From Isoetes taiwanensis (Eukaryota > Streptophyta > Lycopodiopsida > Isoetales > Isoetaceae), in the NCBI GenBank assembly GCA_021234155.1, contig JAJEKV010000023.1, positions 8,438,610-8,502,609 on the forward strand: 64,000 nucleotides of DNA. Reading direction: 5' to 3'. The first letter of the stretch is position 1; each line of letters begins with the position of its first letter. The notes under the pieces are model-generated. The model worked only from the letters and a program-made list of their open reading frames with translations. It was not told where the DNA came from and did not search any database. Shown in pieces: positions 24,373 to 44,199 of the stretch. A program made the translations under genes and the position numbers.

Positions 24373-24402
24373 CTAGAAAAAGTGCCCAGCGTTGCTGGGC
24401 TT
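24373..24402 (-). other. Helitron 3' terminus: hairpin plus CTAG
   Basis: Read on the minus strand: GCCCAGC-AAC-GCTGGGC hairpin, then ACTTTTT and CTAG. It signals termination of rolling-circle transfer in Helitrons. Host base T follows. Confidence 0.9.
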
Positions 24403-24490
24403 CTTGTCAGGCATTAAGTTCAAGAGCTATAAAATGTGAGTTTTATTTTACAAGGGCGTATTTCAACGATGCCAAATTTGTCCATGAATT

Positions 24491-24781
24491 TTAAAGCAAT
24501 ATTGTGTTTGTCATATGCAGCAATACATGAAGGCTGTTCATCATGAATAATAGCATGATAAAGCTCCAAATCATGAAAAATGCCACATCTCCAAGTGAAC
24601 ATAAAAAATCTGAAACAATCACCTCTCTCAGTCTGTCACTTGGAAGTGCAGCACAATTAACCAAGCCCTCCAACTTTTCCTTCTCGGCCCGTGATAAGCT
24701 GGCTTCTTTGCAATACAATCTAGCCTCATCATATAGCTGATCATGTGAACCCTTAAAGTACAATAGACAAAGCTTTAGCAA
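24491..24781 (-). pseudogene. NPH3-domain-like gene fragment carried by the Helitron
   Basis: The minus-strand frame contains LYDEARLYCKEASLSRAEKE followed by KLEGLVNCAALPSD. The spacing LY...Y.K....LS..E..KL.....C..L matches the central part of plant NPH3 domains (BTB-NPH3 adaptors of CUL3 ubiquitin ligases). Only one segment is present and the downstream residues depart from the family, so the assignment is tentative. It lies close to the Helitron 3' end in the element's own orientation, as captured fragments often do. Confidence 0.45.
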
Positions 24782-25420
24782 ACGCTAGAAACAACCTGAA
24801 TGGGAAAGGATGCCGATTACTCCTACAACGATGAAAATAATTGAGCAGAATATTTGTACCAATGTGGTCAAAATATAAGAGCTTACATTCGTATCATATT
24901 TCTATACATATATATTTGTCAATCTAATTGTATAATTAGCTATATGTATAGTTGTGGCATCCCTCAAATTTGCCATGAATGTATAAGGCTGGCACACATG
25001 ACAATTTTGTATAAGGTAGATACATGACAAATTTGTAGATTTTTTTCAATAATAGCATGATATTTACGCATGGCAATGTACCGCGCACAACCAAATAGTG
25101 GTTTGCTAAAGTGAACATCTGTAGCCTGTTTTGGTTGTTTTTGTAGCATGTTTTGGTTGCTCGATGTGTCAAGGGAACATTGTAGCCAAATTTGGTTGTT
25201 TGATGATGTGTCAAGAGAACATTTGTAGCCCAATTTGGTTATTTAATGAAGATGGTCCAACTAAAAAACCATAAAAGTTTATTTCCATTAAGCTACAAAT
25301 CTGGTGGATTTAAGTTGAGAAACATGTAAATTCATGCAATAATAAAAGGAAATAAAATAAGTGATTATTCTAGTGATAAATTGCGCCGACACAAATTGCC
25401 AAATAAAAGTTGGTATTCTG

Positions 25421-25450
25421 GGAAGGGACTCGCAATAGACACAAAACCGG
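25421..25450 (-). repeat. B2 split direct repeat (3' end of DIRS-like element)
   Basis: The plus strand reads GGAAGGGACTCGCAATAGAC and then ACAAAACCGG, matching B1 at 26473-26502 except for one inserted A and the first base. It marks the 3' end of the element. Confidence 0.8.
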
Positions 25451-25582
25451 TGATAGATAGGCTTGTCATTCATCACAGCAGCAGTATACAATGGTTTTGA
25501 GGAAGAGAGAGGGGTAGCCGACCATAGGAACAATATCGGACTACCCCATAGAAAGAATGTGCACAGTCAATATAGAAGGGCA

Positions 25583-25663
25583 TTGGCGACAACTTCTCAC
25601 CGGGATAAAAAACCCCGCCCTTGCGGGTTTTCGAGGAAAACCCTAATGAGAAATGGTCGCCAA
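25583..25663 (-). ncRNA. structured hairpin element, copy 1
   Basis: Nested inverted repeats: TTGGCGAC (25583-25590) pairs with GTCGCCAA (25656-25663), and TTCTCA (25594-25599) with TGAGAA (25647-25652). Between them is a core with CCCGCCC, TTGCGGG, TTTTCGAGG and a T/A-run. The core matches copies at 35145-35228, 38839-38925 and 54793-54875. The RNA sense is the minus strand, matching the element it lies in. Whether it acts as RNA is inference. Confidence 0.6.
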
Positions 25664-26041
25664 CAACCTTGAATGTGATGCCTGAAAATCCGAAGAAGAT
25701 GGCAGGACGGCGAACCCAAAGGGAACAGGACCCCAGAGGACGGCAGAAGCCCCGAATGTGTCGCCTGGAGAACCGGAAAAGATGATGTCGGGCACGACCC
25801 CATAAGATAGCGGGACGGAGAGAGACGAAGGAGACATGTCGATGGCGAAGTCGAGAAAGCAGGATCCCTACACGACCGCCAAAAGAACCTGCAGCAACTC
25901 AAAAGAACCCCCACAAAAATACCCGTAAATGGTTAGACGGAACTAACATGCATGGCATGGACAAGGTAAGCCGCACCCCGAACCCCTGCAGAGAAGAACA
26001 GATTAGAACACCAAAATCCGCACCCCGAAGGAAAAAAGCAT

Positions 26042-26227
26042 CACCCCGCGGGTGGAAAACAAGTAAGTGGAAAAAATAGCATCACCCTCAAGGTGGAAAA
26101 AATAGCATCACCCTCAAGGTGGACAAAAATAGCATCACCCTCGAGGTGGAAAAATAGCATCACCCTCAAGGTGGAAATAAATAGCATCACCCTCAAGGTG
26201 GAAATAATTAGCATCACCCTCAAGGTG
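26042..26227. repeat. minisatellite of seven short palindromes (CACC-CTCAA-GGTG)
   Basis: Units starting near 26042, 26083, 26109, 26136, 26161, 26188 and 26215 repeat every 24-27 bases after the first gap. Each holds a CACC...GGTG inverted repeat with variable centre (CTCAA, CTCGA, or CCGCG in the perfect palindrome CACCCCGCGGGTG) and an AAAATAGCAT spacer. It lies in the tail between A2 and B2 of the DIRS-like element. Confidence 0.88.
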
Positions 26228-26345
26228 GAAATAAAAACAACATATGAACAGTGACATGAAAGTAACGCAAAAACATTATTATAGCAAATGCCAAGTGAAC
26301 AACATGAAAAAGACGTGTCCCCCTGAGCAGGGCGGGAAGGGGGGG

Positions 26346-26462
26346 AAGCTTGGAGCAGGAAGGAAGCTGCTGTGAGAAGACGCCGATAACCGGTGCTGAA
26401 GGAGAAAGAGCCTTATATAGTGGCTCGTCCCTCCCCAGAATGGCGATCCGATGGCTCGGATC
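26346..26462 (-). repeat. A2 split direct repeat with TATA box and palindromic core
   Basis: The 117-bp block is identical by eye to A1 at 33179-33297. On the minus strand it begins with the palindrome GATCCGAGCCATCGGATC (7-base arms around 4 bases) and contains CCACTATATAAGGC, a TATA-type promoter. B1 lies immediately beside it, giving the B1A2 junction expected from a circular intermediate. Confidence 0.88.
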
Positions 26463-26502
26463 GCGCGCGATTCGGAAGGGACTCGCATAGACACAAAACC
26501 GG
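26463..26502 (-). repeat. B1 split direct repeat
   Basis: The plus strand from 26473 reads CGGAAGGGACTCGCATAGAC and then ACAAAACCGG, matching B2 at 25421-25450. It adjoins A2 through the short GC-rich CGCGCGATT. Confidence 0.8.
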
Positions 26503-26639
26503 CCGACTACCAGAGAACTTCCTAACTACAAGCCCAACCGCCGCGAAACCTCCAAATGTTGAGACGGGTCCCGAAGCACATAGCGAGAGTGAGAAGACGA
26601 AGAACGCCAAATGCCGGAGCCCCGGCAGATCATGCGGAA

Positions 26640-27522
26640 CCTCGCTGGCGGGCCGGGCCCGGCCAAGGCCGAAAGCGCACGCGCACTCATAAAGAGACGG
26701 GTCCAAGCCTATAGCTAAAAGACAATCCCCTCCACCACAAGCGAGCAATGAATAGGATAAAGGGGCAAAGAAGAGGGAGAGGATTTAAAAGAGGCCCGCC
26801 TGGTCGGAGGATCGAGGAGATGGTAAGAACCGGCGGAGATCAAACGCTGAAGAATAGTGATCGGCATGCGAGGGAGGGCAAACGGGCTAAAGAAACCGAT
26901 GATGATCGGCGGGGCAAGTTGATCGCTGGCTTTGAACGGGCGGATCAAAATGTCGACGCGGAGATAACGAGAAAGAAAGATCACGCCAGGCCAGAGCTTA
27001 GGGCCTCGTGAGATGCGCAGTAAAAGCGCAAAAAAGAAAGGACGATGAGGGCAAACGGGCCAAAGAAGGAACGGGCGGCGGGTGGTGGCAAAAATGGAGA
27101 ACAACAGAGCTTAACATGTTGAGGCATGAGGGGAGAAAAGTGCGAGGGGGACGAGCTCGACGAGAAGTAGACCGATTTGCCAAGCGACGGTAAAGGAAGA
27201 ACGGCGGGGAGGGCAAAGTTGAAAACTTGATGAAAAAGGATATTGCAGCAGAGGCCGGTAATGGACGCAGGGCGACAGATTTAGAATCATGAAGAGTGGC
27301 AAAAAGGCGGCGAACAACAAAGGGGAAGCCGAGATAAGAAACGGCATGGAGGCGCACCAAACAACAAAGCGGGCGGAACAAAGCCATGTAAGTCGCGAAG
27401 AGACGAGGGGCGCTGGGCGAAAACACCAACGGCAAAGTTGAGAGGAACAAAGGGACCTCCTGAGGAGCAAGTAATCGAGAGGCAGCTGCCACACAACAAC
27501 ATATAAACCATGTTAAATTCAA
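26640..27522 (-). pseudogene. tyrosine recombinase of the DIRS-like element, broken
   Basis: The minus strand shows in order a core-binding domain (ATYMALFRPLCCLVRLHAVS, then FVVRRLFATLHDSKS and AISFFIKFSTLPSP), a segment around FFALLLRISRGPKLWPGVIF that should hold the first catalytic arginine, and near 26745 SLACGGGDCLLAIGLDPSLY, a degenerate form of the HSLRxGG box. The enzyme would integrate a circular DNA copy without a DDE integrase. At least two frameshifts separate the parts. The final catalytic tyrosine was not identified. Confidence 0.72.
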
Positions 27523-28400
27523 TCAAATTGACAACGAAAAACATAAAGAGCTACATGGCGTCGACACCCCGCAAAAGGGGCCGGCTAACCGGGGCAATAA
27601 CGCCAATGAAAATGCATCAAAAACATAAAGTCTTGAATAAAAAGGCCCACGCCGACCCCGGCCCAGAAAGCAGAGGCCACCAAGGGGCGTAGGCCAATGA
27701 AGAACCACCAACGTCATACGAGCCCGACACGCAGCTGCATGGAACAAAACACGTGGAACCAAGGCGGGTGGAGGAAAACAAAAATTGTTAAAGAGATGCC
27801 AATCATAGGTAAAAGCATCCGGGGGAATACGGTGCGGATATGCTAATCGAAAGTGTTATAGACGGGAAGCTTGTGGTTAGGGGCGAGGCAAACCGGTCAA
27901 CATGATGTGGGCCCCACAAAGAATCAACATAACTAAAACACCATGGAGCAAGAGTAAACTCATCCGCCCGAGGAAGGCGAAAGATAATCCGCCCATTCAT
28001 TCTCGGGAGCGAGGAATCCAAACAGCTCCAAGGAGATGGAAAATGAAAACAAATGAGGAAAATCTCGAGAGTAAGAAAATGGATATCAAAGCGAGGAGGA
28101 ACCCCTTTCGCAGTAATAGCGCCACATTCGACATTATCTCCCCGAATCAGAACTAGGCGAAAGCATGAAGAAAAGGCAAAGCCGAACGCGAAAACCCGGT
28201 AAAAGCTTAAGAGTTCCCGCCAAGTAGAAGAGCGAGAAAATCCGATTCGCAGAAAAGGCCAACAAAATCGACGCTGGTCCGTCCCCGGAAGAAGGAGCCA
28301 TCCCCCAACCAAAAGAACTAGCATCAAACCCAAGGACGGCGGATGGACGGGCGGATGGGGAAATAGGGCTTAAAACTTAAGGACGAGGCAATAGATTCCC
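27523..28400 (-). pseudogene. RNase H region of the DIRS-like element, broken
   Basis: The frame at 28333-27803 contains SSTWRELLSF, VLIRGDNVECGAITAKG, and PRADEFTLAPWCFSYVDSLW followed by GPHHVDRFAS. The RE, DN and AD...DSLWGPH.VDRFA motifs are those of the DIRS-class RNase H and the linker after it. It adjoins the reverse transcriptase upstream and the recombinase downstream, as expected. Stops and a shift near 27760-27800 break the frame. Confidence 0.75.
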
Positions 28401-28473
28401 ACAATACAATTTCCATACACAAGCTAAAGAAGATAACTAAATAGGAGCATCCCAATGCAAAGGTTGAATAAGG

Positions 28474-29486
28474 TTATAAGAAAAGAATGTCAAAGCAGAG
28501 ACAAGAGAGCCAAAACAATGCGCAGAGATCTGAGGAACCCCAAGAATTTGGCAAGGTGATTAGACGGAGGCGGGAAGAGGAAAGAAGTTTAAGAGGAGAG
28601 ATGAAAAACTTAGCGAAGTTTCTTAGAAGAGAGGCATATAACCATGGCGTAAGCGTCAAGGAGAAAACCAAGGAAAATGGTGCGGTGGGATAAACGCAAA
28701 CGACATTTCGGCCAAGCAATGAGAAAACCAGCAGCTTGCAAATCAGAAATAATGCGATGCTGAAGAGAACTAGGATCATGCTGAGCGTTAAAAAGAAAAT
28801 CATCCATGTAAGGGGTGCAAATAATACCAAAATACAGCGGCCAATGGCTTAACTAAGGGGCGCATGACTTTAGTAAAGACAAAGGGAGCAGAGGCCAAGC
28901 CGAAGGGGAGCATGGTAAAGACAAAAAAATGCGGGCAAACCGGAAACCCCAAAAAAGTGTGATGAGGAGGCCAAATGGGGACATGATGGTAGCCGGATTT
29001 CAAATCCAAAGTAAAAAGAAAGTCGTGGGGCTGAAGAACGGCTAAAGCATCCGACAGAGACTCATAGCGAAAAGAAGGCACCGACAAAAAGGAATTGAGG
29101 TAGCGTAAGTCGAGAATCAAGCGGAACTTATGATCCCCCTTTGGCACGACGCCGAGAGGTGAGCAGAAAAAGGGGCGAGCGGGAACTTGCATCACGGCAA
29201 GACCGTAACGCAAAAGGTCTTGAATGGCCGAATCCGCAAAAGGGATATGGGACGACTGTGAGAGGAAAGGTTCGGGCAAAAAAAATGGTTGAGGCGGAGG
29301 TCCCCGAGCCCAAGGAAGAGCGTGAACTATGCCGGATCCAAGATGTAACAAGAGAATTGGCGTAAATCGAAAGCCAAAAGGGCAAAGAAGGGAAGACGGC
29401 CACGCACAGATAAAGTCGCCAGAATGAGAATCAAGAGCCACCGGATCAAATGGGAGATGAGGCAAAGGGGAAGAAAAACTTGACAA
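28474..29486 (-). pseudogene. DIRS-class reverse transcriptase, one frameshift before YMDD
   Basis: The open frame 29486-28800 (228 codons) carries PLGVVPKGDHKFRLILDLRY, LFTLDLKSGYHHVPI, FLGFPVC and FTMLPFGLASAPFVFTKVMR, the fingers and palm motifs of DIRS-type enzymes (SGYHHVPI and LPFGLxSAPFVFTK are diagnostic). A shift near 28810 separates the catalytic YMDDFLFNAQHDPS, which is open in the next frame and followed by FLGFLLDAY. The enzyme copies element RNA into DNA. Apart from the shift, the catalytic residues are preserved. Confidence 0.88.
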
Positions 29487-29591
29487 TCTGGCGGAAAAAG
29501 ATCCGCCGTAAAAAAAGAATAACCTTTATTCATTATAAAAGGAAAATACATGCAAAGCGACGAACGACAATAACTACACCAACATTTCGTC

Positions 29592-30604
29592 CTAAGAAGA
29601 CCAAGGAGGAGGTAAAGTGGATGGAGGCAGGGCCGGATGAGGTGTCTGCGGTGGAAAAGCCATCAACGGGGCAGGATTGAGAGGAACGGAGTGAGGAAAA
29701 GGCGAGAATAGGGGGAACAAGATTATGGAGGAACGGGCGACGAAAAGCAATTTTCGGGCGGTGTGGCGAGAACGACCGCAAAAAGAACAGCGAAGATTGG
29801 ACGGGTTGGAGGGAGACGAGGCCGGAGAGGAAAAAGCAGCGGACGGAGGGTAAGGAGAAGTGCGAGCGCGGGAGAGGCGCTTTTCCTGGGCAAATTTCTT
29901 AGCTTGATGCAGACGTTTGGATTCATCAGAAGAGAAATTCAAACTAGGTGACTCGCCAAACCGAAGGCTTAACGCCAGATCCATGTTGGTCAGCAATAAG
30001 CACAAATTTCATTTCTTGGTCCGCCAAACGCTTACCTTCTTCTACCATCTGCAACACATCGTCTGGAATAGCGACCCCCAACATAGTCAAACGTCAATCC
30101 AATCCACCAAACCGAGAGGGTGTCCATGGCCGCAAAGAAACTCATAGTAATGCCGCATGGAATCGCTGGCCAAAAGGTGGGGTAGGCCGAGAATGCTCGT
30201 TCCCCGGTCGTCCGGCCAAGGTGGTCAAGCCGGGCTTGGACCGAGATGCTTCTTTGGTTCAATGACGCCCGGAGTGCTCGAAGAGTCTCTCTCTTTGTTG
30301 AAGCTCCCGCACAATTGAGTATACTCGGGGAAATGGGAGTGGAATGTGGGGTACAAAGCAGAGGCTGAGAGACGCGGGGGCAAAGACGAGAAGAGAGGAG
30401 CCATCCGAGTAGGAGATGAAGGAGCCGCGGGCACCAAAGTGGGGAGAAGACAAAGGCGAGCAAAGGCTGGAAGGAGGCCGAAAGAAAAATTAGACGGCGT
30501 AATCGTGGAGAAAGAGGAGGAGAAAAGGGACTAGCATCCACTCGAGTCCCGCCGAGACAAAGAGGCTTCACGCTGGCGACGAAAGCACCCGCCACCGAAA
30601 GCAA
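29592..30604 (-). pseudogene. gag-like region of the DIRS-like element with a degenerate zinc knuckle
   Basis: Two minus-strand frames (30604-30032 and 30005-29592) include RLHQAKKFAQEKRLSRARTS and then CSFCGRSRHTARK. The latter is a C-x2-C-x4-H knuckle whose last cysteine lies in another frame (ENCFSS). The position upstream of the reverse transcriptase and the basic, proline/serine-rich content fit a DIRS ORF1 nucleic-acid-binding protein. Stops and shifts abound. Further upstream frames (32069-31488) may be its N-terminal part but carry no motif. Confidence 0.55.
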
Positions 30605-33178
30605 GCCGCGGTTGGAGAAAGTTTAACTCATGGAGAAGAACCGAAGTAGTGGTGCTAGACGCCCGGGCCAATAACCCAAAAAAAAAGAATACGTGAGAGC
30701 ACAAAAAATAATAGTCCAAAGGTGATGCCACCCCCGGAGAAGAGAAAGAAGGCGTCTTGACAGGCCAACCCCAAGTCCGCGAAGAATCCAAACAATCGTC
30801 CGCCCGAAGGGAGAGAATGCGACCAAATGACGAGAAAATGACGAATCAAAAGAAACCAGCGTGAAATGCACAACCGCAAGGAACCTAACTAGAGTAATGC
30901 CAATACGGCCAAAAATGCAACCCCCCTTATGCAAAAGAAAAACCCCCAAGAGTCGAGAAAAGGGGATAACACAATACCAAAGCCACCAAATGAAAGAAAA
31001 CCCTCATAATGTGATATATGCAAGGAACCCACCCTTCAAAGGGAAATTACAATAGTAGAACAAAAAATCCAACCAAACCATGGACGAGACACCAAGGAAA
31101 AACAACTCCAAAAATGCACAAAACAATTAACGACGCCCAACGCAAATGATGCCCCCCAAGGGAAAACCCGATACAACATCCCGTCAAAAACCCTTATAGG
31201 CGTACCCCCCCCCGGAAAACAACAATTATGCGCCGTAAAAAAAAAAGAAAGTACCCAAGAATGTCAACCCACATCATGGTCCATGAAAAAACCCCCTATC
31301 AAACATGAAAAGGGAAAACAATTGTCGTATCCCATTACATTCAAAGACGATAGAAGTCCCACATCCAACATAGACCATAAAACACAAAAAAAACAATTGT
31401 CTTATTCCATTTTATTCAACGAGGGCACCAACACCCCTACACTGCCCAAAAACAAACACAAAACATATCCCCAGAGATCAGGGCTAATCACGCAATCAGG
31501 CCCAACGAAATGGCCGGATAAGTCGGGAGAAATTGAGGGGGATACTCTGTCAAAATAAGCAAAAACTCGCGCAGCTGGATCGGACGTAACGACGAAAAGC
31601 CCCATAGCAAAATGATGTCTCCCAGGAACCGAGCTCGAGCTGGATCAACAAGTCTATATGAGCGGAATACCCTACGCACAGCAGGAGAAAATGCAGCATA
31701 AAGGCGTAGGGCCCGGAAGAATTCTTCAGGCCAATCGATGTCCGCATGGTCAAGCTGCAAGGCGTTCCGAGCAGAAGGGTGTAAAGCCTCCAGATGAGAA
31801 GCATAGAGATGGTGGGTAGTCATCGAGATCTCAGGTGGAGAAAAAGGTGGAAAAAACCCCACAGGGAAAATCTTGGCAGAGCACAAAGGACAAGGGAACG
31901 GCATCGGAGTTGAGAACGGACCCAAGGAGGTAAGCGGCAATGAATTGTCTGCTCGAAGCCACGCTGGGGAAAAAGGAAGCCATGGCCAGCAATATAACGA
32001 TCGAGGAGGGCAACACAAGGGGAAGGAATGAATGGTGAGGCCCCTGCTAGCCGAATGAATGGCGGCCAAGAACGGCTGGGAAAAGCATGCAAAAAACTAG
32101 TGGCAGCCAGAAGCCAGCAAAATTAGCGCGCCCACAAGCAACAGCCAAAAATACGACAGAAGATTTGATAGAAAATCAGCGAAAACATACCGGAGGAGTG
32201 CCAGAAGGAAGGAATGTGGGTGGCCACGCACTAAGAGGAAGCCAGTCCAACCCGAAACCTGCAAGCAGAGGTCGGAGAGCCCGCAGACAGCGCCCATGCT
32301 CACGGAGGCGGCAGAAGGTCCCCAAGTACATCCTACAGAAGCAAATCATGGCGAAGAAGGAGAAATCCCAGGAATAGAGGCGAGAGCAGAGGCCCGAAGG
32401 TGCGGGAACCAGCAGGGCAAATACAGCTAAGAGCCAAAGGGGCCAGAAGGAGCAATCGTATCCCAGGTTTGCAGCCATGCAAGCGAGGCTACGAACAGAA
32501 ACAGAACCACAGGGCTGAAGTCAACCTAAGGCAGCGATGAAAATCCCCTAGCCAGCATAAGGAGAGGTAAGCGGACTGACCAAACGAGCATGTCAGGAAA
32601 GCGAGATCACAGAGAAGCCCCAGCCGGGAAAGATAAAGAGAGGATCAATCCACAACCGAAGAGCCAAGGGCAGATCGGAATACAGAGAATAAGCGCCAGG
32701 CAGCCAGGGATAGATCAAAAATGAAAACAAAGAAGAGAAGGCAGCATGCGCCCCCAACGCCCAATCCGCCCAACACGAAAAATTTTTCCACCCAAACCCC
32801 AGAAGATCCACAGAACATGATCACACAATTCAACAGAACGGACCAGGAACCCACAAAACGGCCCCATCACACCGAACCCGTCTAATAACTAACAAAGAGC
32901 CTAGGGACCAAAGTCAACATGCCAATAACCAGAAGAGCCACGATCCCAGTAGAAAAATAGCACCAAAGACAAGCCATGCAGAACGAAAATAAGCTATAGA
33001 AGCATACTAGTATGGAATAAGGACCAATTCGAGGAATCATGCTGAGCAGGGAAGAGGAGGGAGCGTACCGTCCAAAAAATGATGAAGAAACACGCCAGGC
33101 AGGTGCACGCCGCGAGAAGGTGAAGCCCGAAACTGGTGGAGAAACTGGGGACGAAATCCATCGGATGAAGGGCCCGAG
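30605..33178 (-). other. 5' interior of the DIRS-like element, function not recognised
   Basis: The stretch is strongly purine-rich on the plus strand. It holds several minus-strand open frames (for example 32069-31488, with ALHPSARNALQLDHADIDWP) without a motif I can name. It lies between terminal repeat A1 and the gag-like region, so it is leader and possibly ORF1 start. Confidence 0.5.
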
Positions 33179-33297
33179 AAGCTTGGAGCAGGAAGGAAGC
33201 TGCTGTGAGAAGACGCCGATAACCGGTGCTGAAGGAGAAAGAGCCTTATATAGTGGCTCGTCCCTCCCCAGAATGGCGATCCGATGGCTCGGATCGA
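33179..33297 (-). repeat. A1 split direct repeat (5' end of DIRS-like element)
   Basis: Identical by eye over about 117 bp to A2 at 26346-26462, with the same palindromic core and CTATATAAGG promoter box, here placed to drive transcription into the coding region on the minus strand. Confidence 0.88.
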
Positions 33298-34338
33298 TGC
33301 GATTAATATTTATTTTCGAACCAAATAAACTTAAATCAACATGTGATATATCAACATGTGATATATCTGCTTTTGCATTAACTTGCACTACCTGCAGAGC
33401 CATACAATGGGCTATATCCTGTAAGCAGCACGGTGATTGGAAAGCAATAATCTATCTATATCTTGGTAATCACTGCACAAATCCTTTGAAATGTGCACTT
33501 GAGATATTTCTTAGTTGAAAAATATCTTCTCTGGCAGACCGTTTGATAAAATGCCTTTAGATTCATCCAACAGCATGTTTAGTCCCTGCATTTTGCAAAA
33601 ATCAATTGTTGCGAACAAAGACAAATATATATTTACAGATAAAACTTGGAAAGCAATAACAAACCTTTGTGTGCAAATCAAAGTATGATACTTTACCTCG
33701 TAGATCTGGTGTGTATTGGTACATGTAACCAGACAAAGAAGTGAAAAATAAAGAAGCATTTAGCCACTCCAGAATTTTACTCATGCATAAAAGGTGCTTA
33801 ACTACTGATAATAAACTGGTTTTAGAATCAGATGTTATTATCAAAGGTCTCCCTTCTTAGGTTTGAGGCAGAACCGACTATGTATGGCTGGTTGACACTA
33901 TGTTTGCGGAAAAACCCTGGTAGGACACCATGTTTGAGGCAGAACTTGACAATATGTATGGCTGGCTTGTGCATCCTATTTGGCTTCCTTTGAGATAAGT
34001 ATAAAAGTGTGGTTCCTGTAAAATATCATTTAGCTTTGTAATAAGAAAAATTGAAGTACTTCATGTCCCTGCCAAATCATGCAGAGCACTGGAGCCAAAT
34101 GGGATTTTCCAATTGGTAAGCCATCTCTTACATGTTTCCATGATGGCTTCCCACTGGGATCATATTCATAAAGGTCTCCAGTGATCCTGCAGATAATGAT
34201 GAACTTTGACATCTCCACTCAAATTATTATGAACATATGTAAAACATCAAATAGCCGGCATAATTGGTACCTTAGGCAGAACATGATATTGTGCTTCAGA
34301 TTTCCAGTATCAACAAGATTTGCAACATCTTCTCGACA
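33298..34338 (-). pseudogene. host-gene exon fragments (beta-propeller-like repeats) carried by the Helitron
   Basis: Two minus-strand segments look like exons. About 33772-33695 reads LEWLNASLFFTSLSGYMYQY and ends at a GT donor. About 34190-34080 follows an AG acceptor and reads ITGDLYEYDPSGKPSWKHVR. The LF.....G.LYEY...W pattern resembles repeated blades of a plant beta-propeller-type protein of unknown name, but I cannot assign a gene. Preserved splice borders suggest capture of genomic DNA rather than cDNA. The rest of the interval is intron-like. A tandem AACATGTGATATATC repeat sits near 33340-33368. Confidence 0.4.
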
Positions 34339-34517
34339 AGCCATCGGATCGGCATTCTCGAATGGGCAAGCATGCAATTCTTGCATGCATGCATGCATCC
34401 ATGCATGCATTGCATGCATTTTCTGTGGCTCTAGTTCATTTGGGATCGCTATTTCTTGCAGCTTCTTCATCGACTTCTCATCGGCATTTTCTCCTCTCTC
34501 AGCAGTTCCCTTGACTC
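34339..34517 (+). repeat. A1 of the mini split-repeat element
   Basis: It starts GCCATCGGATCGGCATTCTC, includes a TGCATGCA-rich block (34373-34419) longer than in A2, and ends GCAGTTCCCTTGACTC. It matches 34736-34894 apart from the expanded block and a few substitutions. Confidence 0.82.
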
Positions 34518-34684
34518 TCTTTTTTTTTTATACCAGGCAGGGGAGGGGCTTCTCCCTGCTTGGTTTGACAGTTTGACGTCTTTTTCCATATTGGGACATG
34601 TTCTTCCCCGATCTTGTCCCCTTTTTCGCAATCCTTCAGCCTTCGACCTCGGTCCCGTTTTGATAAGGAAGTTCTCTTTTTGTC

Positions 34685-34894
34685 GGGAGCTTTTGTCTGT
34701 TTTCATGCGAGCCCTTCGAGAATTCCATCGATCCGAGCCATCGGATCGGCATTCTCGAATGAGCAAGCATGCATTTCTTGCATGCATTGCATGCATTTTC
34801 TGTGGCTCTGGTTTATTTGGGATCATTATTTCTTGCAGCTTCTTCATCGACTTCTCATCGGCGTTTTCTCCTCTCTCAGCAGTTCCCTTGACTC
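34685..34894 (+). repeat. B1-A2 junction of the mini split-repeat element
   Basis: B1 (GGGAGCTTTTGTCTGTTTTC, 34685 onward) runs into the palindrome GATCCGAGCCATCGGATC (34730-34747) and A2. The same order occurs on the minus strand at 26502-26346, and the flanking AAGGAAGTTCTC is shared as well. Confidence 0.82.
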
Positions 34895-34919
34895 CCACCC
34901 ACCCTCCCTTTTTGTTGTT

Positions 34920-35020
34920 TTTGTTGCGTGGCACGCATGACCAGCCCCTCGCTTTTTCGAGGTTATTTTTTGTTGCGTGGCACGCGTGACCAGCCCCTCG
35001 CTTTTTGAGGTTGTTGTTTT
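34920..35020 (+). repeat. tandem duplication in the mini-element tail
   Basis: A block GTTGCGTGGCACGC(A/G)TGACC followed by AGCCCCTCGCTTTTTCGAGG occurs twice (near 34923 and 34971), each with a CCTCG...CGAGG-like inverted repeat. Confidence 0.75.
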
Positions 35021-35144
35021 CTTATCTTTGTGTTCTAGTTTGTTGATGTGCAGGTACAGTGGGATGCGCGACTCCGTCTTCTTCAGGCTTCGGGGGTTTC
35101 TTTGTTGGAGCAATTTTTTGCAGCCTTACGTTGTGTCCAAGCCC

Positions 35145-35228
35145 CTTGCAGAGGGCTTATCACTAGGGTTTTTCCTCGAAAACCCAAAAGGGCGAGGTTT
35201 TTTAATCCCCGTGATAAGCTCCCTGCAG
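35145..35228 (+). ncRNA. structured hairpin element, copy 2
   Basis: CTTATCAC (35156-35163) pairs perfectly with GTGATAAG (35211-35218), extended outward by GCAGAGGG with CTCCCTGC. The inner CCTCG/CGAGG stem encloses AAAACCC-AAAA-GGG, followed by a T6 run. The core equals copy 1 and the LINE copies while the outer stem differs in sequence. It lies in the tail of the mini split-repeat element. Confidence 0.62.
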
Positions 35229-35410
35229 GTACACTTAACCGACATCTGTAGAATTTTTTTGGGGTCCAGATGATATAACTGGATATTCCCTGTGTTTTTT
35301 CATTGTGGGTAGCTTGCAAATATGCAGCTACCCACTCTCAACCATTGTAGAACTCTGCTGAGATGAATGAAAAGCCTAGCTAGTGGGAGCTTTTGTCTGT
35401 TTTCATGCGA

Positions 35411-37734
35411 ACACATTATCTTCTACAAGGATTAACTTTAAAGTCTTTTTGGCCTTTGTTACAAGATGTTCTAACCATGTCTCTTTTTTGATCCACACAG
35501 GAAGTCCTTATCATTGCTAGGGACCTTATAGCTATGCATAATGGTTGTGTCTGCAGCCCTCCAATTTAACCATCTAACTCTAACATTTTTATGAACTTAG
35601 CTCTAAACAAGTCATATAACTTATGAACTGTTAGACACAAGAATGAGTTTTCCAACTCCTTAATATTGACCAAATTACTTTAATTATCGCCAAGGTCTGG
35701 GTTTAGCATTCCCAAGTACTTTTCCATTTTTTAGACCCACTTTCTTTCTCTCCTTTAACCTTAGCTTCATTTGGAGTAAAGTTCTCCCTCTATTTGGACA
35801 TAGCATTTTCAATATCAGCATCAATTTGAGATTGCAAATTCAATAACTTATTAGGCCTTTAACCAACGTAATAATATGTAAAGCTTTATGTTGTTTCAGA
35901 AATCTTTTTACCTGATACAATATTTGAACCAATATATAACGTATATGAAGATACCGCGGTTCATCATCCATTGCATTCACCTTCTGTACTCTCAATTGTT
36001 GAAGTTCATCGAGAAGAATATGTTGTATGAAATTTGTAAGTCTGGCATAGTCATTCGGTGCACTCCATAAATAATATCCTTGAGTTTTGTGCGCACAATT
36101 CCAGTTTAATTCAGCCTACAATTAAACAGAAAACATCAACTACAATAAAAAAGCCAATCTCACATAAAGCACGGGAAATTAAAGAGAAACACATACTCAC
36201 TGATGCGGCTCATTGCTCTTATCACTGCTGCTTCTCTTTGCACGTCTATTTAAACAAATGTTGCTTCCACTGAAAAATGCATACCGTGCACAAGTGAATA
36301 ACGATCTTTTATTTCTCGCGTCCAAGCGTCAGTGCAGTAATTTCCATCCCAACAAAGAAACATCTTGCCGTTCAAATCCTTCCCACTCTTGATTTGCTTC
36401 AAGCTCATTCTCAAATTGTTGGTTCTCTTCAATCCAATATGCTTTTCATGTGCACTTTATTTAATTTGTGACCTGACAATAGCTGCCTACTGCATTAGTG
36501 ATGGACAAGATAAAACTTCCTTTTTCTATCACATAACCATCAACTCTTAAAAATTATCGCAAAGTTTTAGCTTCCTTACTCACAATTCTGGTAGCCTATC
36601 CTCCTATATTATAAAACTGTGGCGTTGGTCTGTCTGCCCGATCGACGGCCGAGATCATCCCAATGTCCCTCCGCTCCGATCGACGGGCTAGATCCCAGCA
36701 TATTTTGCATTATTTCGAACTGATGGCGCAGATTGTGCCATGAGTGCATAATTTAGGATGAAAGGACACGAATGTAAACGTGCCGTGTGGATGAAAAAAA
36801 TCGTGGTGGCTAAAAAAAAGGGAATTTGGATGATATTGTCGGATGTCTGCCCATGGGATTGTTATCGAGCAGTCGATTGTAGTCGACATTTGCTCCTACT
36901 CCCTCTCCAGATTTAAGGTAAGTGTTGTGATCCATTTAAAAGGCATAAAAAATAAAGATTGAAGGCATAATTCTAACGAGGATCCCTGTTGAAAAGTTTT
37001 TGGGAGAAATGTCTTTGGAAATGTCTGTGATCCCTGTTGAAAACTGTGATGTGATGTGTTGACAGTTATTCTCATCTTGATGAAAGCAGTGTATTTTGTT
37101 CTCTGCAGATTTAAGGTAAGTGTTGTAATTCGTTTTATTTTCTTCTTTTCAAATAGGAGGGCATATGGGTTATAAGACCTCCGTCCTATTTCCTTCTGTT
37201 CTTGCTGAAGAAATTGTTCCAATTCCTGCTTTTCTCACTCAGACCATCTATAAGTCATATATTCAAGTGTTGCCATCCCATGCCAGCAGCTTTTACTTGC
37301 ATCTTTCTTTCTGCCGTAAATATTGTTGAAGTCTCACTCTATGCGACCAGTCTAGCAGGGTTCTGAGTTAGCATGTGCTAGGATGCCGCTGAATATGACT
37401 GAGCATGGCCTCCTAGAGCTTTGTAGCAAGCGAACTACTTCCGACCTATGGTAGGCTATGTGGATGCGGCATAAATATTGCATTCTGGATCTTGGGATAG
37501 TTGTTTCCCTGGTTGGTCGATTCATGAATTTGCCCATATGTACTGCCCACAATGCGTCCGGTCTACATAAATTTTGTTTCCAGATCTGTTTGTGGTACCA
37601 TTAGGTTATCTGATTCAAGATTGAGATCTATCAGAGGTTTTTAAAGATCAAATCTAGGCATATGAACACTAGAATATCTGAACATGGGTTGTCCATAGTA
37701 AACTGTTTTGTTTCTTAAAGCTCCAGGCGCTATT
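35411..37734. other. Helitron interior without recognised genes
   Basis: AT-rich DNA with short frames only. A minus-strand segment at 36432-36250 (MFLCWDGNYCTDAWTREIKD) looks exon-like but matches no family I know. A GATCGACGG-rich patch near 36640-36690 starts after TCCTCCTATATTATAAAAC, a possible second Helitron 5' end. A short direct repeat (AGATTTAAGGTAAGTGTTGT) occurs at about 36909 and 37108. Confidence 0.4.
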
Positions 37735-39002
37735 ATAGCAGGATCTCCTTCACTTACCCCAAGGCTTCCCTCATTCACTTACCAGGGACAAGAGGTAGAG
37801 GTGGCTCCGACCTACAAGTACTTGTGGATCGAGTTCTCAACTACCACCCATTGGGATGCTGCCATCAGGTTGCGGCTCACGGCGGGTTGGAAAGCACTAT
37901 GTGCCATGCAGAACAACAGCCACAAGGTAGAGTTGTATGCCTGGGGCCACCAGTCACACTTGTTTCGGGCCTTGGTCGAGCCGGTCCTTTTGTATGGGGC
38001 AGAAGTGTGGGGCCCGGTGATATCCCTCAACACCTGGAATGACCTCGAGCAGGTACAGAAGGCCTTCTTGGCACGGGCCCTGGGGGTGAAGTCCACAGTT
38101 CCATACCAGATCCTACTCCAGGAGACAGGCTTTCTACCCCTTCAACGGGCTGCATTGGAACGCCATATCGTTTACTTCCAAAAGGTGGTCGCTATGGCTG
38201 ATACACGCTTGCCCCAGCTTGCTTTCGCCACAGTGATGGGTCTCCAACGCCTGAAATCCTGCTGGAAAGACACGCAAGCTCAGTGGTTCTCACGCTGGGG
38301 TGTGCAGGCAAACAGATGCGTCCAGGTCAGGACAAAGAAAGATCGCAAGGCACTTAAGCTGTACCTAGATGCTACTTTCCTTCGCAAGCTCTGGGATGCA
38401 GATGCTTTGACGCACGTTAAGCTGGCACACTATCATCAGCAAGTCAATCCTAGGCTCACAAGAGGCCCACACCAGTACTTGTACACCCAGCTGCCCATGA
38501 AGAAGCGCAGACTTATCGCTTCCATTCGCACGGGTGCACATCGCCTCCGCATTGAAACAGGGCATTGGGCTCAGGAAGCACGAGAGCAAAGGCTTTGCCA
38601 GTGTTGCCACCAGGGCACCATTGAGGATGAATGTCATACCCTCCAGATCTGCCCAGCATTTGCCCATATCCGAGAGCGATATGTTCTATTACTAGTACCT
38701 GGCCAGCCGTTGCATCAGTTACTGACTACGGCGTCAGTGGGTTTGTTGGGGTCATACCTCCAGGAGGTTATGGATGCACGGACTCATTTGTGTCCTATGG
38801 GACGGTATTGAACTGTCCTATACAATTGTACAGCATGCCAGCATACTTATTACTGCTAAAGGTTTTTCCCTCGAAAACCCTTCGGGGCGGGGGTTTTTTA
38901 ATCCTGTCAGTAACACGCTTGCTGCTCTCTTTTTTGTTTGGGTCCCATAGGCCAATTGGTCTCCGTGGACGCTAAAAATCTATTCTATTCTATTCTATTC
39001 TT
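37735..39002 (+). mobile_element. 5'-truncated LINE: RT thumb to tail
   Basis: The open frame (to 38811) covers the end of a LINE reverse transcriptase and its C-terminal domain: YKYLWIEFSTTTHWDAAIRL, EPVLLYGAEVWGPVI, IASIRTGAHRLRIETGHW and a zinc knuckle CQCCHQGTIEDECHTLQICP. A 190-bp 3' UTR with a strong hairpin and a (CTATT)n tail follows to about 39002. It lacks the endonuclease and RT palm, so it is dead on arrival. It is the best-preserved member of the family whose other copies are at 13119-14325 and 54380-54952. Confidence 0.9.
38839..38925 (+). ncRNA. structured hairpin element, copy 3 (LINE 3' UTR)
   Basis: TTACTG (38850-38855) pairs with CAGTAA (38908-38913), with outer CAGCA/TGCTG. 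The inner core is TCGAAAACCCTTCGGGGCGG followed by GGGTTTTTT, giving AAAACCC/GGGTTTT around a TTCGG loop. In LINEs, a 3' UTR stem of this kind can be the RT recognition site; that role is inferred here. Confidence 0.65.
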
Positions 39003-40029
39003 CTCGATCTCTATATTTTGCTTCTGCATTGTGCACTATGCAGACCAGATGGATAAGTCTCTTATGGTTCCTCCTGCTACTTCTTTGCCATTGTGTTCAT
39101 TATTTTGAATAGCTATTTCTGAATAGGTAAGGCGGATGATTATAAATGGTAAGGTCACTTTACATGGTATAAAATGTTGGCTCAAACCTAAACTGCAAGG
39201 TCCCTTTTATTTCTAAATGATAGTTATAAGTAGCTTTTTAATGTTTCCAGCGAGAAGCTTCTGTCACATACCAACTGATTTTTCTCTGCGAGTTGTTGTT
39301 GATACTTAATGAGCCACTTAATGCCCAATTGAGAATAATGCTCTATCCATGTCTTGAAGCGAGATTTGCACAAACAAATGTGAATATTGAGCTGCTTCTA
39401 TTACCATTGGAGAAACATGCACTCGTATAGTGGAAAAAAAGAAGAATTTGAGGTCTATCTGACATTTATTTTCAAATGGATTTGTAGAGCATAAGCAAAT
39501 CAAAAAATCTAGCAGAGTTGATAATACTTTCCTCACAATAACTTTAGTTTCCAATTGATATATTACTATAGTTGTAGGCCAACAAAAGCAGATGTTGCAC
39601 TACTATTGCGCTCAGATTAAAATTAAATGTTTAGATGTTGTTGAAGTGGGAAATTGAGGTGACAGTCACACGGTTCAATCTTGGATGTCAGTTTAAAATA
39701 GGATGCCCTGTTGTGCTATTTAGCAATGTGAAAACTTACAAAGTAATATAGTTCAAGACCCCGTTGTTGTTGCTGGGTGTTTGCAGTTCTAGAGGAAGAC
39801 CAGGTTTAAATGCATGGAGCGCAAATTGTAGAATGTTTTTTGTCCTCTCCTTTTTTTCTATTATCAAGTTCTTTGTTTGTGTTTTTATGGAAAATGACTG
39901 CTTGATGTTTTCTCATAAACAGATTATGAAATTCTTAAAGCATCATGAAGGAAATTACAGTCATTTAGAGGAGGTTTAAGCTGTCTTCAACAATTGATCA
40001 TGAGGAGATCGTCTGCAACTTTGTGCAAG
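39003..40029. other. Helitron interior, nothing recognised
   Basis: AT-rich DNA with only short open frames on either strand. No motif, repeat or splice pattern that I could assign. Confidence 0.4.
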
Positions 40030-40275
40030 ATGACATAGTGGAAGATAGTCATTGACATTTATGCAAAGTCTGGGATTATGATGAGGCATTTGAAGTATGT
40101 TTCAGGATATATTCCAGTTTATGACGACATGCATTATGAAAACATCAGACCAACCAGATTGGTTTTTTGAAATGTTAATTGGTATGTATTCGAGATGTGG
40201 AGATTTAGAAATAGTGTGCAATGTGTTTGACATCCCATGCAGCGAATCAGTTCTTTGGAAATTAGAACAGAGTAA
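40030..40275 (+). pseudogene. PPR-protein gene remnant
   Basis: Broken plus-strand frames include VIDIYAKSGI (about 40049-40078) and MLIGMYSRCGDLEIVCNVFD (about 40172-40231). Both match the plant pentatricopeptide repeat pattern LI.MYAKCG.L..A..VFD of organelle RNA-binding PLS-class proteins. Stops and shifts make it non-functional, and only about two repeats are visible. It probably reached here by Helitron capture or as background DNA. Confidence 0.55.
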
Positions 40276-40559
40276 ATCCTTTTCATTAGTTCTAGATTGC
40301 GATATTGTTATTGCACAAATGCTGGTTGAACTGAGATGGATGTCAGGATTCTGTAGCTTATAAACTTTTCCTCCTGAAAACGCCTCTATACTCTATAGTA
40401 TAGTACGTCTATAAAAAAAAGAGGGGTATTTTTTATTTATATATTTATATAAATATAATGAAGAATAAAAAACTTCTAACTAATATGTTAACCGGATTTA
40501 TGCCGCTAACCAAGTATTTTATCATTAGCATCTAGCTCAAATAGTTAATTTAACGTGTC

Positions 40560-40931
40560 TACTTCTATATTATATCTGTCTCTTATCATCTGGTATGCAT
40601 GGCATTGATGGAATCACCTTACACAGCAGACTTCTGCTTTGATATTACAGCTAAGAGCCCAAGTGGCTTCTTCAAAGAATCAATCTTTTGTTCTGTCAGT
40701 GATCTCTGCCAGAATCTCTGCTTCTCGTTATTTCAGACTGGAGGAGTTCTGATATTGCCTTCAAAACGACTCCAAATCGAGCTTCTGCTCTTATCGATTC
40801 ACCTTCTGTTTCTCCAAAAAGGCACACACCTTTCTATTCCTTTTCCTTGACGCGTTTTTCTTGTTTGGTGTCCCCAGCCAAACATAGACATCTGTCCTCT
40901 GTGACATGTGTACTGTAAAGGCTATATTCCA
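40560..40931 (-). repeat. partial Copia LTR (minus strand), outer end uncertain
   Basis: On the minus strand a polypurine tract (AAGGGGGAGAATAT) is followed by TGGAATATAGCC at 40931, a plausible LTR start. The LTR extends to lower coordinates, where no clear CA end was located; about 40560 is a guess. Confidence 0.5.
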
Positions 40932-41066
40932 ATATTCTCCCCCTTAGCCTTTACAATTCATAACTCCTACTTGGGACTTAGTAGTCACCAATTTAGGCCC
41001 ATAAAGAACCTTTGTGAGCATATCAGCTTGTTGTAATTTTGTTGGTATATATTCCACATTTATCTC
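40932..41066 (-). pseudogene. Copia RNase H C-terminus and polypurine tract
   Basis: The minus strand reads VEYIPTKLQQADMLTKVLYG then PKLVTTKSQVGVMNCKG and a stop at 40946-40944. This is the usual end of Ty1/Copia polyproteins (YIPT..Q.AD..TK.L), directly followed by the purine tract. The rest of this element is absent. Confidence 0.82.
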
Positions 41067-41084
41067 CCCCTTTTCTACCTAGGA

Positions 41085-41795
41085 AAGCGGCATAAAGTAT
41101 GTTAAAGATGTTAATTACATACCTGGACTTGAAGAAAAGTTGTTGTATGTTTCTAAGATCAATAAATGTGGCTTGTATTTGGACAAGGAGAAGTAATACT
41201 TACCCATATGCCCCCAGTTATTCCCAACTCTGAACTTGTTGCTCGAGGCATTCTCCAAAATGATCTTGATTGCTGCTGCTACTGTTAACATGTCTTCGGA
41301 TGAGCTATGGCACGATCGTTATAGTCATTTTTGTCAATCTCTTTATATGATTCATGACAATGATATGGTCGTTGGACTGCATGTCGTACATGCCCATATG
41401 TGGTGCTTGCAATCTTAAAAGCAAGTAGATGCACCTTTTTCCAAGGAGGCCGTGAAGAAAACAAATGACATCTTGAAGTTGGTGCATAGTGATGTGTGCG
41501 AAATTAAGATCTTTTTTTTTAGTGGAGCACACTACTTTTATACATTTATTGATGATCATTCTAAGATGACATGGGTGTATTCTTTGCATTACAAATCTGA
41601 TATACTTTACTCTCTAAGTTTAAGGAGTTCAAGGTTATGGTTGAAAAACAAACATGGAAGCTGATTAAGGCATTCAAATCCGACAATGGTGGTGAATATA
41701 AGAATCATTCTTTTGATGCCTATCTTCGAGATTCTGGGATTGTGCACGAGTTGAATGCTCCATATTGTTTATGGCCACAGTTAATCCACAGTTAA
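41085..41795 (+). pseudogene. Copia GAG-pre-integrase and integrase fragment
   Basis: Plus-strand pieces read IKYVKDVNYIPGLEEKLLYV, LWHDRYSHF (pre-integrase zinc region, decayed), ILKLVHSDVCEI, FYTFIDDHSKMTWVY and, after a shift, WKLIKAFKSDNGGEYKNHSF. The D and DNGGEY motifs are from the integrase DDE core. It ends where the duplicated block at 41814 starts. Its orientation is opposite to the adjacent Copia RNase H piece, so the two come from different insertions or an inversion. Confidence 0.82.
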
Positions 41796-41813
41796 ATACA
41801 TATGGCTGTACAG

Positions 41814-43082
41814 GATCTTCCACAAAGAATAGCTTCCAACAATTTAATCATAATGGCTTCTGCTTCCATACTCTGCACCAGATTCCAGCTACGATACAAA
41901 ATTGCTACACGACAGTTTCTCTCGGTTATGGAAACACAACATGCTACAATATATATGACATACGTTACAGCATTACAGATATAATCAAGACACACAAATG
42001 CAGCAATGCTTATTGCCAGTCCCGAATCACGAATGTCTTTGTCCTTAAATGGCTCTAGCAATGCAAATGGCATCAATGACAATCTGAGTATGAAATTCTC
42101 AACTTTATCCATTTCCAAGATGCCGCTGAACAGCATTTTCATGAAGAACAGATATTGAAGTCCTCTTACTAATCCAGAAATAATAAGTAGATGAATCAAG
42201 CGGGCAATTCCACAGTTACAACCTTCCTTAAACGTCCGACCAAGGTTGCCCTCCTGCCAACAAGAGTACTAACAACGTTGTGTACAACAGCTCCAAAAAT
42301 GACAGCATGTCCCATAGCTGCCCAGAATCTGAAATAACCACAGGCTTGCACATCTTGCACCCAAGATCTACCAACTGCTTCAATGGCCTTAATCACATTC
42401 ATGCCTTCAACAACCTTCCCAAACACAATCCTCTACGTACAGATCAAACCAACACTTCCTATTCACTTCAATCTGCTATTTTCCTTGGCCGTCTAAGTAC
42501 ATATCCAATGATCCTTTTTTTTTTTTCTATAACCTTTTGCTTGAATCTTGACTCACCGATAAACCATTGACCAAACATTGACCCAACACCAGATAAATCC
42601 TTAATGTAAAAAACATATGCAGATTCTAAAACGTAAGTACAATTTTCAGTGGTCATGTCTTACCAATGTAATCACTGCATCTTTCGCATTATCCTTCATC
42701 TCTGTATATACCTGCACGCAATTAATATATGACCACATGAGAAAATATATGGATGAGTTTCAAAATCAAGATGAAAATAACTGTATATGACTATACAACG
42801 ACTGACAAAAAAAGTCTGCAAAGCATAAGCATTAAAGACAACCCAAACGGCAGTAAAAATATGATCATGCCATACTCGTTAGAAATGTGGAAGGGAATTG
42901 ACCCATAACCCGCCTTTAGCATCCGGCGACAGGATCTTCCACAAAGAATAGCTTCCAACAATTTAATCATAATGGCTTTCGCTTCCATACTCGCACCGGA
43001 TTCCAGCTACGATACAAAATTGCTACTACGACGGTTTCTCTCGGTTATGGAAACACAACATGCTACAATATATATGACATAG
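41814..43082. repeat. about 160-bp direct duplication (41814-41980 and 42926-43082)
   Basis: Both copies run from CAGGATCTTCCACAAAGAAT to ACAATATATATGACAT with scattered substitutions and small indels. They bracket the cyclophilin fragment. Confidence 0.88.
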
Positions 43083-43084
43083 CC
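41814..43084 (-). pseudogene. captured host-gene fragments including a cyclophilin C-terminal exon
   Basis: Minus strand: an AG acceptor at 42434-42433 is followed from 42432 by RIVFGKVVEGMNVIKAIEAVG and, after a one-base shift, CKPVVISDSGQL (42346-42315). This is the C-terminus of cyclophilin peptidyl-prolyl isomerases, which fold proline-containing proteins. Other exon-like pieces lie at 42712-42663 (VYTEMKDNAKDAVITLV) and 42199-41792 (membrane-rich, unassigned). The block 41814-41980 is repeated at 42926-43082. These are gene scraps and cannot encode an enzyme. Confidence 0.62.
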
Positions 43085-44149
43085 CGGCCTAAAAGGTTGC
43101 CCTCCCGCAAACTGACTACAAACCCTATAACTTTTAAATTTGCCCCAAAGGTGCCATTAAACCACCCACGCTCTCAACACAAAACGGAGACTCTCTCGAT
43201 GCTCCTTGCCATATTTCCTTTCGCCTCAACCAAGAATGCCCCAAAACCCCCTGTCCAATTTTTCGTTTCTCGGCTCTATTTTGTTGATTCATCTGTGTTT
43301 TCTTTTTTTTTTTTTCATTTTAGATTGGAGAATTTGGAAGCTTCGGGATCGGCTGGAGATTGTGCTCCTATTCAACAGTAGCATAAACCAAAAGGCGGGA
43401 TCAAAGACGGTGTGAATGGTCATGCAACGGCTTCAATTGGTTTTGCGAACTCAAGCGGTGATAAGGCCACACTTGCCGCAGATTATGGCATTCTGAGATG
43501 GATGATAAACTTGCAAGACATCTACTTCCAACACAAAAATTTGAAAACCCATCGGCCGAGGTAAATAATATTAACAATTAAACCGTGAATCCCCAAATCG
43601 ATTTTGCTTGCATGATGGATTAATCGGCATATTCCAACAGGGGGCTCTGTTCTTCATCAACAGGGTTGGATGTTATAATTTTGAATCCTTCCCTTCTTGC
43701 CATTTTTTTTTCTTTTCGAGCGCTGTCCGGACCTTGCATGATTTTTTCATCTAGAATACTGCAAAAAAAAGGCCCTACTTCTACAAAATCAAAGGATCTT
43801 ACCGGTTTGCTCTGTTCTTCATCAACAGGGCTCGATGTTTTAGGCTTAAATCCTTCCTTTTTTTGCCGCCCAAGTGATGCAGAAGTGAAGATTTGCTATG
43901 TTCTTCATCATCAGGGCTCGATGTTTTAGGCTTAAATCCTTCATTTTTTGCCGCCCAAGTGATGCAGAAGTGAAGAAATGAGGTCGCGACCATGACTGGA
44001 TAGCTCGAGCCCGGCTGAGACGGCTCAAGCGTCATATTCAAAACTGCTCAATGCCATCCTATATCACACAGTGCCCCCGAAACATAACCGCTAAATCTAA
44101 GGGATCAAAAACAGGAAAAAAAATTGAATGGTCAAGATGCTGCACAGAC
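43085..44149. other. Helitron 5'-proximal interior with a roughly 90-bp repeat
   Basis: No gene recognised. A block starting near GCTCTGTTCTTCATCAACAG occurs near 43645, 43809 and 43898, the last two as near-perfect tandem copies (TTTTAGGCTTAAATCCTTC, GCCGCCCAAGTGATGCAGAA). Confidence 0.6.
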
Positions 44150-44199
44150 TATCATAAAATGCCTTTATTATTATATATAGATAGATAGATAGATATAGA
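44150..44199 (-). other. Helitron 5' terminus
   Basis: The minus strand starts with TC (TCTATATCTATCTATC), then an AT-rich stretch and AAAGGC, like many plant Helitron 5' ends. Host base A precedes it. Confidence 0.85.

Follow-up and report, generated by a model that had tools for sequence, protein, structure and literature searches.

A Helitron of about 4.5 kb with probable PAT-like and composite inserts in a tandem unit of Isoetes taiwanensis

The window analysed here is a 64,000-nucleotide stretch of the genome of the lycophyte Isoetes taiwanensis (C1027:8438610-8502609; the genome searched, G000, has 1,658,258,908 bases in 1110 contigs). It holds a set of ~1.8-kb tandem units, and comparison of the window with itself shows that one of them is interrupted by a Helitron. 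Two sister copies of this Helitron were found elsewhere in the genome, A at C1067:4694743-4699214 (4472 bp) and B on contig C951. The explanation that we consider very probable is that a non-autonomous Helitron of ~4.5 kb carrying gene fragments sits in the tandem unit and was enlarged by a PAT-like and a composite insert. The Helitron itself is laid out as follows:

24373..44199, minus strand: Helitron insertion in its present form, 19,827 bp, with both ends, the hairpin and an A|T empty site
24373..24400, minus strand: Helitron 3' terminus, with the hairpin GCCCAGC/GCTGGGC at 24384-24400, then ACTTTTTCTAG
44100..44199, minus strand: Helitron 5' terminus, opening TCTATATCTATC
24373..25417, minus strand: Helitron core block 1, common to the C1067 and C951 copies
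33302..34340, minus strand: Helitron core block 2, common to the sisters; ~103 bp of the sisters are missing at 33790-33792
41771..44199, minus strand: Helitron core block 3, common to the sisters; ~42201-42349 is in neither sister
41798..42244, minus strand: captured DUF7813 gene fragment (Pfam PF25105, E-value: 1.4e-15)
42364..42432, minus strand: captured cyclophilin exon scrap (phmmer against PDB chains: peptidyl-prolyl isomerases, best E-value: 2.3e-4)
24474..24512, minus strand: possible remnant of Rep N-terminal coding sequence (QYCFKIHGQIWHR compared with GPYCFKIHGQIYHR), a tentative assignment

The Helitron and its sister copies

Read on the minus strand, the insertion starts at 44199 with TCTATATCTATCTATC and finishes at 24373 with GCCCAGCAACGCTGGGC-ACTTTTTCTAG. 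The TC of a Helitron 5' end and the CTRR of a Helitron 3' end are both present (TCTATATC...TTTTTCTAG), and the same ends are found at other loci. The 3' end carries the hairpin GCCCAGC-AAC-GCTGGGC, with a 7-bp stem and a 3-nt loop, 11 nt from the terminus and followed by ACTTTTTCTAG. Both the TC...CTAG ends and the hairpin are present as the original prediction described them. Helitrons insert between A and T without duplicating the target. Here the bordering bases are A24372 and T44200, there is no target duplication, and the joined flanks, ATATAATA|TAGTCATT, are identical to the second unit of the tandem set at A22497|T22498, where the unit reads TATAATA|TAGTCATT. The other uninterrupted units (at 20679|20680, 51415|51416 and 58342|58343) differ from it by 1-2 bases immediately 3' of the insertion point; all four intact sister units of the window show the empty site. 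Based on these results, 24373-44199 on the minus strand is confirmed as a genuine Helitron insertion, and the boundaries and the insertion between A and T proposed at the outset are exact to the base. The Helitron most likely entered the unit by rolling-circle (peel-and-paste) transposition.

The genome was searched with both termini. With the terminal 100 bp of the 3' end as query, 40 of 112 candidates were scored and 41 matches obtained; with the 5' query, 40 of 406 candidates were scored, and the matches again numbered 41. Three of the 5' matches, at 94-100%, are the window and its two sisters, the others reaching 75-86% over the terminal part; among the 40 scored candidates only those three attain at least 90%. 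In all eight fetched 3'-end loci, which represent six distinct flanks including that of the window, a T follows CTAG; the hairpin is exact in seven and changed in L008. Both ends occur together in four elements: the window copy, the C1067 copy (flanked by ATACAATA and TAAGTATA), one of ~6.3 kb at C951 and one of ~2.5 kb at C1026. The original prediction had staked itself on the termini being shared with other loci and being paired there, and they are.

Its description of a 19.8-kb Helitron fared differently. Copies A and B are collinear with window 44183-42350, 42200-41771, 34340-33790, 33792-33302 and 25417-24362 (the edges in B lie a few bases off). Both are without 25418-33301 (7884 bp) and ~34341-41770 (7430 bp), with the same junctions in each, and these two stretches total ~15.3 kb. 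The smaller differences run in both directions: ~42201-42349 is present only in the window, and ~103 bp at 33790 only in the sisters. Because the sisters lack the two large stretches and the intact one is 4.47 kb long, the proposed length is rejected: the Helitron and its proven site stand, whereas the giant Helitron, said to be unusually long for a plant, is contradicted by the C1067 and C951 copies. The alignment of further copies that had been proposed for separating the original Helitron from its inserts thus yields a core of ~4.5 kb and two large inserts, and the Helitron proper, at about 4.5 kb, is ordinary for a plant. The locus serves as a clean worked example of an apparent giant that is a small Helitron with nested inserts, and for that reason Helitron lengths should be read against sister copies.

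Over 4284 ungapped columns, the window copy differs from A by 2.3% (98 sites) and from B by 6.7% (288), while A and B differ by 5.3% (229); 76 of the sites are window-only, 17 A-only, 207 B-only and 5 three-way. The nearest sister of the window copy is therefore A. The DNA flanking A is like that flanking B at about 93-98%. Because the two share flanks, they resemble a single old insertion within duplicated DNA, and the large inserts sit on the window copy's own branch. In the simplest history, a copy from the A lineage would have entered the tandem unit first and acquired the inserts there.

Copy B has had an insertion of its own. The ~6.3-kb Helitron at C951 (about 1109126-1115422), which has the same terminal type, lies reversed inside the 5' end of B, between A and T; the C1067 copy provides its empty site, and it represents an independent event in B. 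No Rep domain was found in the three minus-strand frames of this nested element that were scanned, and its candidacy as an autonomous element was dropped.

A six-frame Pfam search of 24373-44199 gave no Helitron_like_N or PIF1 match at E 0.5 (27 bases, 34273-34299, were uncovered), in agreement with the earlier failure to see a Rep or helicase by eye. As neither domain is found, the Helitron is non-autonomous. RepHel genes are abundant in the genome (1813 candidates for Helitron_like_N, 150 of them scored and all 150 listed above the cut-off), so that a trans-acting protein can exist, and movement of the Helitron would have been driven in trans by such a RepHel protein. Twelve of the 150 listed loci were compared with the Helitron termini, together with their 1.5-kb flanks. 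Significant matches were obtained in three loci (E-values: 2.7e-5 to 3.3e-4), all of them within the 27 bases at the inner edge of the 3' query, which belong to the Rep-like remnant. The ~39 bp of this remnant (24474-24512) matched RepHel loci by blastn in 3 of the 12 (E-values: 1.7e-6, 7.1e-5 and 8.6e-4), and we tentatively regard it as a short leftover of Rep coding sequence. A PDB search with the scrap 24494-24784 gave no match, and a search of the window against Rfam gave nothing at gathering scores.

The DUF7813 scrap has a single protein match (201 candidates), from the lycophyte Diphasiastrum complanatum at 55%, and the cyclophilin scrap reaches just E 0.12 with Pro_isomerase in Pfam. 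A 154-bp piece of captured sequence is doubled in the Helitron core (41810-41962 and 42929-43081) in all three copies. Gene-capturing non-autonomous Helitrons are of a type known from maize, rice and Arabidopsis. Such elements are like the present one in their TC 5' end, 3' hairpin with CTAG, insertion at A|T without duplication and exon scraps; only the host and the particular cargo set it apart, since its apparent length comes from nested inserts. A passage of PMC8547701 reports that maize Helitrons are 2.4 kb long at the median and that another transposable element disrupts about 14% of copies.

The PAT-like insert

The first of the two large inserts contains the following features:

25418..33301, minus strand: PAT-like tyrosine-recombinase retrotransposon (DIRS order), 7884 bp, a later insert missing from both sisters with an exact junction
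33178..33296, minus strand: split direct repeat A1, 100% identical to A2 over 119 bp
26345..26463, minus strand: split direct repeat A2, 119 bp identical to A1
26474..26505, minus strand: split direct repeat B1, with AAT between B1 and A2
25418..25450, minus strand: split direct repeat B2, the 3' end of the element
28613..29525, minus strand: reverse transcriptase (RT) of the PAT-like element, interrupted by a frame change (RVT_1, E-value: 2.8e-8)

In coding (minus) orientation the order is A1, coding region, B1, A2 and B2, which is the split-repeat arrangement A1-B1A2-B2. By the definitions set out in the relevant part of PMC3266345, split direct repeats point to a PAT-like rather than a DIRS1-like element, and on its repeat structure we would place 25418-33301 with the PAT-like elements. 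The trinucleotide AAT is found at both ends of the insert and at its internal B1|A2 junction. The empty site in the sister Helitrons is ATTAATACC, and the filled site reads ATTAAT[element]AATACC. Integration at a 3-bp core without further target duplication is therefore seen for one element with its empty site, and in the junctions of one relative. This relative, on C1056, is ~85% identical to the window element, with A1/A2 identity of 99.2% and B1/B2 identity of 97.4%, and its B1|A2 junction is exactly its own two termini joined at AAT. This is as expected from a circle with a 3-bp core, an intermediate described for DIRS1-like elements in the same part of PMC3266345. We propose that the window element integrated through recombination, with one AAT in its circular intermediate and the other in the Helitron.

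The window copy is interrupted by frame changes, and much of the coding evidence comes from the C1056 relative. Its RT gives a stronger RVT_1 match (E-value: 4.1e-14), its RNase H matches are below threshold (best E-value: 0.023), and residues 41-642 of its 665-aa pol open reading frame (ORF) align at 40% to a Klebsormidium protein, P0003, that carries RVT_1 and PF05869. The RT and RNase H expected of a DIRS-type element thus appear as RVT_1 in both copies and as the pol alignment to P0003 in the relative. With regard to a methyltransferase-like region, Pfam gave no PF05869 in the C1056 ORF itself; the aligned P0003 carries this domain, at a place within the protein that is not listed. The C1056 ORF after pol aligns to the C-terminal part of the Klebsormidium protein P0011 (E-value: 2e-20), a part with no recombinase label in the precomputed Pfam list, and similar alignments, to the C-terminal part of two or three Klebsormidium proteins, are obtained with the downstream ORFs. 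The RT of the window element has 773 protein relatives, of which the two best are unnamed and the closest named are from Klebsormidium nitens, a streptophyte alga (about 39-42% identity). As a genome query the RT gave 8539 first-look candidates, 150 of which were scored and listed.

The element is like PAT-like retrotransposons, as part of PMC3266345 defines them, in its split direct repeats, its RT with RNase H and its 3-bp core without target duplication. In the C1056 relative the likeness may extend, by alignment, to a methyltransferase-type region and a tyrosine recombinase, the latter sub-threshold. Reported hosts of PAT-like elements are chlorophyte algae, nematodes and some other animals, whereas the host here is a vascular plant. 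A 2022 review states that DIRS elements are known only from green algae. Two other sources count against novelty: the table of the Ceratopteris genome paper (PMC6890710) includes 361 pieces labelled DIRS, 45 kb in all, and a review of 2024 (PMC11630846) counts DIRS as one of the retrotransposon classes of plants, with no example given at that place. A passage of PMC4438587 gives DIRS as one of the commonest superfamilies in a taxonomic group that is itself not named there. The words DIRS and Helitron are absent from the main text of the two Isoetes genome papers (including PMC8566536), and no report of DIRS in lycophytes was found in the open-licence PMC literature, which carries little weight as an absence. 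The Helitron itself is ordinary, and it is probable that the PAT-like element extends the host range of the DIRS order.

More broadly, we think it quite likely that PAT-like tyrosine-recombinase retrotransposons are a large and long-lived component of this lycophyte genome, in RT-bearing and miniature forms, and that they integrate by conservative recombination at AAT. If this is true, the statement that land plants lack DIRS-order elements would be overturned, and copies nested in duplicated Helitrons would supply empty sites exact to the base, from which the integration reaction could be read directly. With its exact empty site, its full complement of split repeats and thousands of candidate relatives at first look, in a lycophyte and so in a plant group that the 2022 review leaves without DIRS-order elements, the present element allows the recombination model to be tested in a vascular plant. 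The origin of the plant ALOG domain could be touched as well: a part of PMC3537659 traces this domain to a recombinase of DIRS1 type, complete elements of which were not known in streptophytes.

The composite block and competing explanations

The second large insert has the following features:

34341..41770, strand not assigned: second later insert, composite, 7.43 kb, missing from both sisters, with no recognisable termini
34339..35410, plus strand: mini PAT-like relic (A1 34339-34517, B1 34685-34710, A2 34736-34894, B2 35385-35410)
37752..39001, plus strand: LINE-type (long interspersed nuclear element) piece, edges approximate, with a 369-aa open frame at 37702-38811
41419..41792, plus strand: weak remnant of a retroviral-type integrase (rve) at the right edge of the block, which we take to be Copia-like (PF00665, E-values: 0.011 and 0.15 in two frames, both under the cut-off)

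The A1 repeat of the mini relic is truncated at its outer end, and the relic is oriented opposite to the large PAT-like element. The middle of the block resembles other loci. Of the five compared, L050 and L054 have a Helitron 3' end 1.2-1.4 kb downstream of the similar sequence, whereas none was seen in the examined stretch of the remaining three. These two 3' ends suggest that the middle of the block may be a piece of a different Helitron family. The LINE-type piece is skipped in related loci (L052 passes from 37751 to 39000, and L050 and L054 do likewise). A protein search with its ORF gave two matches, neither with a name, and LINE-like sequence also occurs at window 54384-54955. Together with the PAT-like element, the LINE piece, the integrase pieces (weak as they are) and the gene scraps bear out the cargo originally listed for the interval.

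Plus-strand AT skew reaches at least +0.35 in all but one of the 16 half-kb steps between 25373 and 32873, with little outside. It is ~+0.5 in the large element and ~-0.3 to -0.4 over the reversed relic 34339-35410, corresponding to a T-rich coding strand; this asymmetry marks PAT-like DNA and fades near the insert borders. A short motif, CTCGAAAACCC...GGGCGGGGTTTTTTAATCC, occurs at 25606-25643, 35164-35239, 38859-38934 and 54812-54887. It is common to the PAT-like element, the mini relic and the LINE-type pieces and may be a shared tail or a terminator-like module.

The alternative closest to the original prediction is that a true 19.8-kb Helitron, with the PAT-like element and the composite block as cargo, moved whole into the unit. 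Helitrons carry gene fragments, and the termini of the window copy are intact. We nevertheless consider this very improbable: the closest copy (2.3%) and the farther one (6.7%) are both without the inserts at the same junctions, and the PAT-like insert has an exact, AAT-flanked empty site of its own. Still less probable is that the two ends come from different Helitrons, through a chimera or end bypass, so that the interval would not be a single element. Elements with differing interiors do share the 3' terminal 100 bp, and the match to the window extends over only about 95-130 bp in five of the eight 3' loci fetched (L004-L008), but the C1067 copy is bounded by the same pair of ends with the core blocks in the same order, and the empty site is exact.

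The ends of the Helitron, the empty sites, the insert-free sisters, the split direct repeats and the AAT at three junctions, on which the explanation of a small Helitron enlarged by inserts is built, are read directly from the DNA. Several points weigh against parts of that explanation. By Pfam and by frames, no recombinase frame was recognised in the window copy itself; the tyrosine recombinase signal comes from the C1056 relative only (PF00589, E-value: 9e-4), lies below the curated cut-off and is split over two frames. Among the 12 RepHel loci compared, none with the termini of this Helitron was found. Finally, the second block is without a target duplication or recognisable termini, and its junction is imprecise, replacing several bases of the sisters.

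The missing duplication and the imprecise junction would both suit another origin for 34341-41770, namely filler DNA from end-joining repair with no transposon insertion. The resemblance of its middle to sequence near the Helitron 3' ends of L050 and L054, when no such end is seen at the borders of the block, points the same way. A full-length donor was not found, however, as no locus matches the block probe throughout (the best match is 92% over 604 of 1501 bases; 79 candidates, 40 scored). We give filler DNA an even chance for this block. In the enlarged-Helitron explanation, the 7.4-kb composite, consisting of the mini PAT-like relic, material that can border Helitron 3' ends at other loci, the LINE piece and the integrase remnants, would have been added after the PAT-like insert, by a route that we can only infer.

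Host units and neighbouring elements

TTA-type microsatellites separate several of the tandem units, which lie at 19810-24372, 44200-45682, 51017-52460 and 57566-59334; a conserved ORF (MGRRKGGFNKGTILKMEEEK...) within them has no Pfam match. The units had been labelled Penelope-like elements, a label that finds no support: a six-frame Pfam search of the unit 20679-22496 gave no reverse transcriptase or GIY-YIG domain, and its lone match, to Presenilin, was sub-threshold (E-value: 0.0056). A separate long terminal repeat (LTR) retroelement with 513-bp LTRs, 99.6% identical, lies in the array at 45681-51016; the alignment of the sister units stops at 45682 and is taken up again at 51017, on its other side. 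A further retroelement-like stretch at 16398-19639, possibly non-autonomous, has two ~690-bp repeats (93.6%) around a gag ORF at 17458-18270 (PF03732, E-value: 6.9e-14).

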